From Thermaurantimonas aggregans (GTDB lineage: Bacteria; Bacteroidota; Bacteroidia; Flavobacteriales; Schleiferiaceae): a stretch of DNA of 64,000 nt. Position numbers and translations under genes: made by a program. The notes under the pieces are model-generated. The model made no database searches. It was not told the DNA's origin and was given only the letters and a program-made list of their open reading frames with translations. Location: the NCBI RefSeq assembly GCF_003851885.1, contig NZ_BHZE01000002.1:62001-126000 (forward strand). The letters are read 5' to 3'. The first letter of the stretch is position 1, and each line of letters opens with the position of its first letter. This document shows positions 28,932 through 34,384 of this stretch, in pieces.

Positions 28932-29090
28932 TGTTTTTCATTTAAACGTTAACCGATATCAACGTACACAATTTTTGCCAGAGGTTGAGTATCAGTGAGT
29001 TGTAGAAACTTTAGTTCTTTTTTTTCGGCTTGCAAGTATAAGGCGATTTTTTTTGAAAATAAATATTAAATATGAAAAAGATCTAGATGG

Positions 29091-31533: not shown

Positions 31534-32256
31534 TTAAAGAGGCATTTGTGCTTCAGGAGTGTTGCCAACACCTTCCTTTCCAAGTAATTTACTGACTGGT
31601 ATGGCATAAAGGTCATCAACTGGTAAAGCATCCAGATGGTTAACAGCTGCTTTAAAATCTTCATGCAGCCAAATGTCGATGTCTTCAGCTTCCATAATAA
31701 CGGGCATTCGTGGTTCTACTGTGTTGTGAATCGATTGCATAAAAGTATTGGCCTGGCGAGTCAAGATGCTTACGCTGAGCGCATAAGGAAGTGTTTCAGG
31801 CGCATTTTCAAAAATGCCTGCCACAAGCATCGGTCGATGATCGCTGTGTCGAATAAAATGGGGTTGTTTTATTTTGTTAAGTTGTTGATATTCAAAAAAA
31901 CCGTCTAATAAGACAATACATCGATTGTTTATTGAATTTCGAAAGGAGGGTTTTTCACTCAAAGTTTCAATTCGCGCATTGAGCGTATTGTTGATGATTT
32001 TCTTTTGCTGCTCGATAGTTCGTGCCCATTTAGGTATAAGTCCCCAAAAGGCAGGAATGATTGAAAATGGAGAAATGTTTTTAATTAAAACAGGGAGCCC
32101 CGGATGATCAAATCCATACTTAAACCAACCAACTCCGAGTGAGGTTTTTGTCTGATCGAGTTGATTAAAAAAGGTAGGCTGGGAGTCAGACGTAACACCC
32201 AGCCTGCGGGCATACACTTCGTTTTTATGTGTCAGATAACTAACGGAATAGCACAT
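31534..32256 (-). CDS. SRAP domain protein (HMCES/YedK-like abasic-site DNA-protein crosslinker)
   Basis: A 240-residue protein beginning MCYSVSY, so Met removal exposes the catalytic Cys2 that forms a thiazolidine link with abasic sites. Other conserved residues appear in FWGLIPKWA, NARIETLSEKPSF, CIVLLDGFFEY and IHNTVEPRMPVIM (the catalytic His). It protects abasic sites in single-stranded DNA. The ATG overlaps the stop codon of the upstream T9SS cargo gene (TGATG), an odd pairing of a DNA-damage enzyme and a secreted protein. An extra in-frame TTG at 32259 would block the N-terminal Cys and is rejected. Confidence 0.9.
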   Translation of the reverse strand: MCYSVSYLTHKNEVYARRLGVTSDSQPTFFNQLDQTKTSLGVGWFKYGFDHPGLPVLIKNISPFSIIPAFWGLIPKWARTIEQQKKIINNTLNARIETLSEKPSFRNSINNRCIVLLDGFFEYQQLNKIKQPHFIRHSDHRPMLVAGIFENAPETLPYALSVSILTRQANTFMQSIHNTVEPRMPVIMEAEDIDIWLHEDFKAAVNHLDALPVDDLYAIPVSKLLGKEGVGNTPEAQMPL

Positions 32257-34235
32257 CAATAAGCCTTTAACAACTTAAAAACCTTCTCGACACCGTCGAG
32301 TTCAATACGCAGCATGTAGGGGGCAGCTGGCAAATACACTGTTCGAGACCATTCAGGTTGAGAAAAATCCTGTAATTGAAAGATGGTTTTGCCCAATAGA
32401 TCATACAGAGAGATCCGAACGGGTGCACCTCCCGGAGGCATGCCATAGACAAAGAGCTTATCGCCTGAAAATCCTGCCTGAAGGCGATCGGGGTCAAAGT
32501 CATCGATGCTGATGCTTGCGCAAGTGAGTGAATCACAAGCTCCGAAACACACAATTGGCAACGTGGTGTCGTTTGTGGGTACTGTGAGAAATCTGTTTCC
32601 GAACTGCGTGCAGCTGCCGGTGATTAGTTCTTGAGTAGTGAAAGAGCTTCCATTCGAAAACTTGTACAGTATCAAAGCACCTGTGTCAATCGGAATGGTA
32701 ATTCTATAAATGTTTGGCTGAATTTGCGTCAATTTGTATTGACTGTAATTCCACTGATTGAATGTACCAGCTACGTGTACCCCTTCAGGCGAAACATTTT
32801 TACCTTTCATGTTTACTTGGAAAGTAACATCAGATGTTGATGGAGCAGGCGGAGGGGCTGGACAGGGATTACAACTGCCAAAGCAGACAGCCGGCAACAC
32901 TGTATCGTTAACAGGCACTACGACAAAGCGGTTGGCCGGAGTGCCGATGCCACAGGCAGCAGGTACAGTCTCATCATTGCCCCAGGCGTTGCCGTTGATG
33001 AACTTGTACTGAACGGTATCGCCTTCGTTGAGCGCTGTGGTGTACGTCCAGAAACCGCTGGCAGAGTCGAAGGTCATCGGCGTAGCCGCAGGATTCCAAC
33101 CCTGGAAGTTGCCAGCGATGTGCACTCCGGCAGGTGAAGCAGGCGTAGAGCCGAGGTTAACGCGGAAGGTTACCAGACTTGTAGGAGCCGGAGGCGGAGG
33201 GGCTGGACAGGGATTACAACTGCCAAAGCAGACAGCCGGCAACACTGTATCGTTAACAGGCACTACGACAAAGCGGTTGGCCGGAGTGCCGATGCCACAG
33301 GCAGCAGGTACAGTCTCATCATTGCCCCAGGCGTTGCCGTTGATGAACTTGTACTGAACGGTATCGCCTTCGTTGAGCGCTGTGGTGTACGTCCAGAAAC
33401 CGCTGGCAGAGTCGAAGGTCATCGGCGTAGCCGCAGGATTCCAACCCTGGAAGTTGCCAGCGATGTGCACTCCGGCAGGCGAAGCAGGCGTAGAGCCGAG
33501 GTTAACGCGGAAGGTCACCAGACTTGTAGGAGCCGGAGGCGGAGGGGCTGGACAGGGATTACAGCTGCCAAAGCAGACAGCCGGCAAGATGGTATCGTTC
33601 TGCGGAACAGTCAGCGTTCGATTGGCGAAAGGTCCTGAAGCACAAGGTCCGGAGAGGGATTCGTAGGTAGAGCCGTTCAGGAATTTGTATTCAAGAGACG
33701 TATTTGGACTCAATACTAATTGAATATAATAGGCTCCATTGAGTGAATCAAAGGTCATTGGCAACGATGAGGTGGACCAATTGTTAAAGGTACCCGAAAG
33801 AAAAACTCCTTGAGGAGCCGGGGTAGTTGTGCCCAAAGAAACTCTAAAAGTTACCAAAACACCTGATTCACAGCTATCACAGGAGCCAAAACAGGTAATC
33901 GGTAAAATGGTATCGCTATCTGGAATGACAATTTGGCGCTGTTGAATTTGATTGATACAACAACCTGAAGAGATGTTTTCACCTATGCCATTAATTAAAT
34001 AGGTGTAAGAAATTCTTTTTCCACACGAAGCTTGTAATTCGTACTGATAAATGCCGCCTCCTAAATGAAGCATTGGCTGCCCATTCTGGCCAAATACGCT
34101 CCCTGTAATTCGTACATCAGCATTTGATGGAATTCCGTTTGGGATACGAAGTCGAAAGAACGCGTTTATGGATTGAGAAACAATGCTTTGTGAAAATACA
34201 AAAAGAGATAAAAAAAGAAAATAAAAATTTTTCAT
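32256..34235 (-). CDS. T9SS-secreted protein with five starch-binding/CBM48-like repeats
   Basis: A 659-residue exported protein: signal peptide (about 1-22), five repeated Ig-like units of about 100-115 residues, and a type A T9SS sorting domain in the last ~80 residues (LFVYGMPPGGAPVRISLYD; LRIELDGVEKVFKLLKAY-like end). Each unit has a VTFRVNLG strand, GVHIAGNFQGWNP-type motif, VQYKFINGNAW, and a Cys pair CFGSCNPCP before a Pro-rich linker. These resemble glycogen-binding (CBM48/AMPK-beta-like) modules. Units three and four (about residues 233-462) are almost identical. A polysaccharide-binding role is inference; no catalytic domain is seen. Confidence 0.85.
   Translation of the reverse strand: MKNFYFLFLSLFVFSQSIVSQSINAFFRLRIPNGIPSNADVRITGSVFGQNGQPMLHLGGGIYQYELQASCGKRISYTYLINGIGENISSGCCINQIQQRQIVIPDSDTILPITCFGSCDSCESGVLVTFRVSLGTTTPAPQGVFLSGTFNNWSTSSLPMTFDSLNGAYYIQLVLSPNTSLEYKFLNGSTYESLSGPCASGPFANRTLTVPQNDTILPAVCFGSCNPCPAPPPPAPTSLVTFRVNLGSTPASPAGVHIAGNFQGWNPAATPMTFDSASGFWTYTTALNEGDTVQYKFINGNAWGNDETVPAACGIGTPANRFVVVPVNDTVLPAVCFGSCNPCPAPPPPAPTSLVTFRVNLGSTPASPAGVHIAGNFQGWNPAATPMTFDSASGFWTYTTALNEGDTVQYKFINGNAWGNDETVPAACGIGTPANRFVVVPVNDTVLPAVCFGSCNPCPAPPPAPSTSDVTFQVNMKGKNVSPEGVHVAGTFNQWNYSQYKLTQIQPNIYRITIPIDTGALILYKFSNGSSFTTQELITGSCTQFGNRFLTVPTNDTTLPIVCFGACDSLTCASISIDDFDPDRLQAGFSGDKLFVYGMPPGGAPVRISLYDLLGKTIFQLQDFSQPEWSRTVYLPAAPYMLRIELDGVEKVFKLLKAY
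32851..33540 (-). repeat. Two near-identical tandem 345-bp repeats inside the T9SS cargo gene
   Basis: Bases 32851-33195 and 33196-33540 align end to end without gaps. I found only two differences by eye (T/C in the codons for a Ser and a Val), both synonymous. The period is 115 codons, one complete domain plus linker. A third partial start of the unit at 33541 diverges after about 45 bases. The pattern points to a recent duplication or gene conversion. Confidence 0.92.
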
Positions 34236-34270: not shown

Positions 34271-34325
34271 CAATAAATTGTTAGTCTTCTTTTAAAATTT
34301 TGTGAAGTAGGCGAGAATGTCAATT

Positions 34326-34356
34326 AAAAATCCCGTTGACTTTCGGTCAACGGGAT
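34326..34356 (-). terminator. Rho-independent terminator of dnaA
   Basis: On the minus strand ATCCCGTTGAC, a five-base loop and GTCAACGGGAT form a perfect 11-bp stem followed by T5. Confidence 0.88.
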
Positions 34357-34384
34357 ACACCAAGCAATGTTAGAGAAAAATGTC

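Follow-up and report, generated by a model that had tools for sequence, protein, structure and literature searches.

A probable recent in-frame duplication of a carbohydrate-binding module in a predicted surface protein gene of Thermaurantimonas aggregans

The 64,000-nucleotide stretch of Thermaurantimonas aggregans DNA analysed here (the window) contains a gene for a predicted secreted protein with five CBM48/CBM20-like modules (hereafter the CBM gene), the third and fourth of which are almost identical. We consider it probable (roughly 0.75) that these two modules arose by a recent 345-bp in-frame tandem duplication through the linkers, at a site where such events recur, and that the product is a T9SS-exported, predicted alpha-glucan-binding surface protein.

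The CBM gene, its parts and the repeated tract

The following features, all on the minus strand, are referred to throughout.

32256..34235, minus: CBM gene, 659-aa predicted secreted protein with five CBM48/CBM20-like modules (open reading frame and Pfam)
33858..34235, minus: signal-like stretch (recognised by eye) and module 1, degenerate and lacking the sugar-contact residues (module alignment)
33519..33857, minus: module 2, contact residues W, K, Y, N (module alignment)
33174..33518, minus: module 3, the first twin, W, K, W, N, third-position G+C 0.62 (alignment, AlphaFold)
32829..33173, minus: module 4, the second twin, W, K, W, N, third-position G+C 0.58 (module alignment)
32487..32828, minus: module 5, W, K, F, N, diverged (module alignment, Pfam)
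32256..32486, minus: C-terminal region resembling a T9SS type A sorting signal (21.1 bits, cut-off 23)
32847..33191, minus: repeat copy 1, 345 bp (TRF, lag-345 comparison)
33192..33536, minus: repeat copy 2, 345 bp (TRF, lag-345 comparison)
33537..33587, minus: partial third copy, 51 bp with one mismatch, at the module 2/3 linker (lag-345 and linker comparisons)
32847..32873, 33192-33218 and 33537-33563, minus: 27 bases identical in three linkers, the putative crossover zone (linker comparison)

A preliminary description of this DNA had reported two gapless 345-bp units with two silent differences (32851-33195 against 33196-33540), and this was reproduced, the mismatches lying at 33135/33480 and 33171/33516 in third codon positions. 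Identity at a lag of 345 runs slightly beyond those units, over 396 positions (32847-33242) with three mismatches (33135, 33171 and 33219), all silent and in third positions, the last of which (33219/33564) falls outside the two units. TRF gives a period of 345 and 2.2 copies, and since the longest exact stretch (288 bp) is also the longest exact direct repeat of the 64-kb window, the repeat is not due to chance. A DNA search of the genome found no second near-identical copy elsewhere; the gene's own linker matched at 93% over 59 bp, and all the other matches lie in paralogues (65%, 69% and 84% over 245, 167 and 56 bp, respectively). A viral source of module 3 was also considered and set aside, as 13 IMG/VR stretches fitted a pattern and none of them encodes a relative of module 3; the query comprised six peptide patterns, the first slightly off in that the GTG-coded first residue was taken as M.

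The assignment of the units to CBM48-like modules holds for the whole protein, which scores above the Pfam cut-offs for CBM_48 (68.9 bits, cut-off 22.4), AMPK1_CBM (62.3, cut-off 26.8) and CBM_20 (50.7, cut-off 23.3), whereas single modules remain just below them, module 3 alone reaching 22.3 against 26.8 for AMPK1_CBM and 20.9 against 22.4 for CBM_48, and module 1 alone giving zero Pfam matches. The T9SS type A sorting-like tail scores under its curated cut-off (21.1 bits against 23), and the signal-like N-terminus was recognised by eye only. The other three modules had been called strongly diverged, which is correct over whole modules (module 2 shares 54% of residues with module 3, and modules 1 and 5 fall under the 45% print threshold) but not for the last approximately 25 codons of modules 2 and 3, which are near-identical and include the linker. 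Compared over their whole length, modules 3 and 4 have a protein identity of 97%, a dN of 0.030 and a dS of 0.067, and their protein differences are confined to the linker end that follows module 4, because that end lies outside the repeated tract.

The joint between the two units is a hybrid. Read in gene orientation over 100 bases, the middle linker is identical to the module 4/5 linker at bases 1-64 and to the module 2/3 linker from base 38 onward, apart from one silent base at 85, while the two outer linkers (2/3 and 4/5) are identical at bases 38-64 (27 bases) and agree at 50 of 51 positions over 14-64. Since the breakpoint falls within the stretch common to the outer linkers, the event was probably homology-mediated, although a hybrid joint alone arises from any tandem duplication, and the single mismatch in the 51-bp outer homology counts against a linker-mediated crossover. 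We infer that one ancestral module gave rise to modules 3 and 4 by an in-frame 345-bp tandem duplication, its two flanking linkers having undergone unequal crossing-over (or replication slippage), and the 51-bp near-identity of the outer linkers, with its 27 identical bases, could have mediated the exchange. Where the preliminary description had offered either a very recent duplication or gene conversion under selection for an identical protein, the former, by unequal crossing-over, appears well supported by the hybrid linker; selection need not be invoked, as there are only two or three differences and the fact that all are silent is weak evidence. In the available text of a survey of domain repeats (PMC1553488), recent duplications are slightly in excess in the middle of arrays, and the window's duplication likewise sits mid-array.

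A Pfam scan of four genes in the neighbourhood of the CBM gene identified DnaA, SRAP, a sugar transferase and a methyltransferase. The stop codon of the CBM gene and the SRAP ATG share one base (TGATG, or TAATG in the relative discussed below; window 32240-32275, minus strand), which suggests coupled translation of the two genes. On this reading, the SRAP gene starts at the ATG at 32256 and not at the listed TTG at 32259, which places Cys in the second position; SRAP proteins require Cys as their second residue. A hairpin followed by a T run was seen by eye between dnaA and the CBM gene (window 34325-34360, minus strand), and transcription of the CBM gene is therefore probably separate from that of dnaA. 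An L19-Flavobacteria ribosomal protein leader is present at window positions 28960-28987 (minus strand).

Comparison with relatives and alternative readings

At least 76 of the 88 genomes in the family set have some match to the CBM protein. Among the matches listed, the only ortholog of the CBM gene that was identified is in a Schleiferia-like genome, G039, which matches Schleiferia thermophila DSM 21410; its contig C1 was matched to NZ_QPJS01000001.1 of that strain, with a paralogue at the same place in both. The gene order dnaA, CBM gene, SRAP is common to the window and G039, and of the eight genomes searched for dnaA and SRAP, only G039 has it; in the six other genomes where both genes were found, they are widely separated or sit on separate contigs. 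The G001 genome, from the same genus and 70% complete, matched only the paralogue and gave no match for either dnaA or SRAP, and it is thus uninformative on this locus.

In G039, dnaA lies upstream on C1 (DnaA identity 90%), which ends within the array, and contig C9 begins within the array and runs on into SRAP, followed by two genes that by eye resemble the window's sugar transferase and methyltransferase; the two pieces most plausibly belong to one gene. Six modules are seen over the two contigs, compared to five in the window, and they correspond to window modules 1 and 2, an extra module (Sa3), the twins (Sb1 and Sb2) and module 5. The last 85 bases of C1 and the first 85 of C9 agree at 84 positions, which we read as two linker copies between which one or more modules are absent, the alternative being a base error at the edge of C9. 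Sa3, at the end of locus L127, groups with module 4 of the paralogue (88/69) and has a third-position G+C of 0.65; an exchange between paralogues, or a loss of Sa3 from the window's gene, is possible.

Silent sites separate similarity within each genome from similarity between species. The proportion of identical four-fold sites is 0.97 (of 67) for the window twins and 0.76 (of 54) for the G039 twins, compared to 0.29-0.38 in the four twin comparisons across species, 0.35 for dnaA across species and, for the paralogue, 0.27 between the window genome and G039 and 0.27-0.35 over three genomes. Silent sites are hence saturated between the species, and yet each pair is close within its own genome, which suggests a tract that has been renewed and is not old and static. 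By the preliminary description, its reading would be refuted by relatives that share both units but show numerous silent differences. G039 goes part of the way, having a twin pair at the corresponding position in which 13 of 54 four-fold sites differ, but that pair is far closer to itself than to the window's. On these sequence comparisons, the tract looks recurrently duplicated or homogenised. A control is provided by a five-module paralogue on another contig, whose modules pair one-to-one between the window genome and G039 at amino acid identities of 0.75-0.85 (other pairings were printed at 0.59 at most) and which, in the same genomes, shows no homogenisation like that of the CBM gene twins.

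In a codon-shuffle test (uncorrected), seven of nine pairs within the two arrays had more identical synonymous codons than expected (p<0.05), as against none of the nine tested pairs within paralogues (out of 20 possible) and none of nine across species or paralogues. The positive pairs were 3/4, 2/3 and 2/4 in the window and Sb1/Sb2, Sa2/Sb1, Sa2/Sa3 and Sa3/Sb1 in G039, with Sa2/Sa3 and Sa3/Sb1 only at 0.02; the pairs without excess were 3/5 and Sa3/Sb2. As the excess of 2/3 and of Sa3/Sb1 is mostly in the last approximately 25 codons, the linkers again appear as the exchange zone. A tree with G001 as the third genome supports the paralogue module groups 1, 3, 4 and 5, with module 2 forming no clade; the window twins are weakly supported (80/31), their grouping with the G039 twins is without resolution, and the tree does not show whether the ancestor of the window organism and G039 had one module or two.

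These patterns bear on an alternative that overlaps with recurrent duplication, namely that the ancestor already had two modules and that gene conversion has kept an older pair alike, each lineage overwriting its own. It would account for the near-identical pair of G039 in the same place and for the synonymous-codon excess that reaches module 2 and its linker, and a conversion tract longer than one period would leave nearly the same pattern as a crossover. However, one 396-bp tract spans a full period together with an overhang, and a single crossover is enough to account for this, and no two-module ancestor emerges from the tree; we regard it as somewhat doubtful, though with an appreciable chance of being right. 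An assembly artefact, in which a single unit was doubled in error or more copies were collapsed to two, seems highly improbable. The 288-bp exact stretch is longer than a usual short read and the G039 contigs end in the array, but the window's units carry distinct silent bases and each runs into a unique flank. Assemblers are more prone to losing repeat copies than to inventing them. A collapse of extra copies may have occurred, and the true copy number may differ from two.

Local GC-biased conversion acting on the twins, in which repeated recombination lifts the third-position G+C of the twins, was suggested by values of 0.62 and 0.58 for the window twins against 0.32, 0.43 and 0.46 for the other modules, and by 0.75, 0.64 and, for the third module, 0.65 against 0.23, 0.41 and 0.30 in G039, where none of 188 background stretches (from five 20-kb pieces) reaches 0.64. 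In the window genome, by contrast, values of at least 0.62 occur in 16 of 307 background stretches and values of at least 0.58 in 27, and in the wider family the homogenised modules are richer in only three of five ORFs, the mean rank correlation over 46 ORFs being approximately zero (p 0.98). GC-biased conversion was therefore rejected as a general rule for homogenised modules, and as a local effect it is distinctly unlikely; an old foreign origin of the G+C should have faded, given the saturation of silent sites between the species, so that a continuing local cause is possible.

In a sample of 100 distinct multi-module ORFs (the best 80 of 97 loci plus further loci, and thus biased to relatives), the window's gene ranks first in internal DNA identity (98.5%) and its G039 ortholog, cut by the contig edge, second (91.6%). 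Five of the 89 ORFs with at least three modules contain a pair above the homogenisation thresholds (synonymous-codon and protein identity both 0.7). Two further ORFs with high internal DNA identity, L132 (83.7%) and L054 (79.9%), fail these stricter thresholds. The idea that highly repeated ORFs are cut more often by contig ends was not borne out in the 66 of the 100 ORFs that belong to loci L019-L098 (one of four against eight of 62, Fisher p 0.45).

Predicted fold and sugar-contact residues

Module 3, folded as a single module with its GTG-coded first residue entered as M, gave an AlphaFold model with a mean pLDDT of 94.7. The top Foldseek match is the CBM20 of STBD1 with maltotetraose (E 6.9e-4), with CGTases and AMPK also among the top matches; among the 50 matches listed, two have E<=0.001, and the query TM is 0.47-0.63. 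A profile search of module 3 returned AMPK beta and SusF (PDB 4fe9). Within the CBM protein, only modules 3 and 4 have W, K, W and N aligned with the AMPK-beta contacts, whose residue numbers we presume to apply to the matched chain. The AMPK contacts to cyclodextrin are given as Trp100, Lys126, Trp133 and Asn150 in the accessible part of the source (PMC9788615).

The full contact set is restricted to Sb1 and Sb2 among the six modules of G039, and it is present in 258 of 397 family modules and in four of the five homogenised pairs. Being this common in the family, it does not amount to an enrichment, and the duplication of that particular module may be a matter of chance. The CBM protein is probably a surface alpha-glucan binder. 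Its central modules would bind alpha-glucan after T9SS export, and doubling the one module with a full contact set would increase valency or reach. Four cysteines, numbered 74, 97, 101 and 104 in module 3, are either invariant or reach at least 90% conservation across 54 modules, and they probably form disulfides.

Relation to known systems and implications

SusF-type surface proteins of Bacteroides carry several alpha-glucan-binding modules, and the CBM protein shares with them the presence of multiple such predicted modules on a predicted Bacteroidota surface protein; it differs in that the four neighbouring genes scanned are not a starch-utilisation set and its modules are CBM48/20-like. 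Similarly, the CBM48/CBM20 domains of AMPK beta, STBD1 and SEX4 are alike in predicted fold and aligned contact residues, whereas the window array is without an attached enzyme domain and has four conserved cysteines per module.

Periscope Proteins (SasG, Rib, Sgo_0707 and CdrA) are described, in the sections available of two papers (PMC8201768 and PMC9704523), as having near-identical tandem domains whose number changes protein length by recombination. Like them, the window's gene encodes adjacent folded domains that are nearly the same in DNA sequence (343 of 345 bp) in what is predicted to be a surface protein, and homologous recombination is the proposed source of length change in those accounts, as here. 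In contrast to the Periscope Proteins of those sections, only two near-identical units are seen in the window's gene, which has a T9SS-like tail, and its modules are probable ligand binders and not a stalk under a separate tip domain. With one genome per species compared here, the array may best be called periscope-like, not a member of that class. A literature search of openly licensed papers, in the portions available, found no account of the CBM gene or the array; the process is already known, and the place is new.

The tract may also be a contingency-like locus in the window organism and its Schleiferia-like relative, in which linker recombination continually adds or drops a ligand-competent module, with a locus-specific rise in G+C and cell-to-cell differences in reach or valency, a scenario that we consider unlikely but worth stating. 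The findings suggest that modules of such genes may drop out of short-read assemblies. A natural comparison is available within these genomes, where two paralogues are composed of the same modules and only one of them is homogenised. Should the array prove variable within populations, periscope-like length variation would have a counterpart among T9SS-type cargo of Bacteroidota that carries carbohydrate-binding modules.
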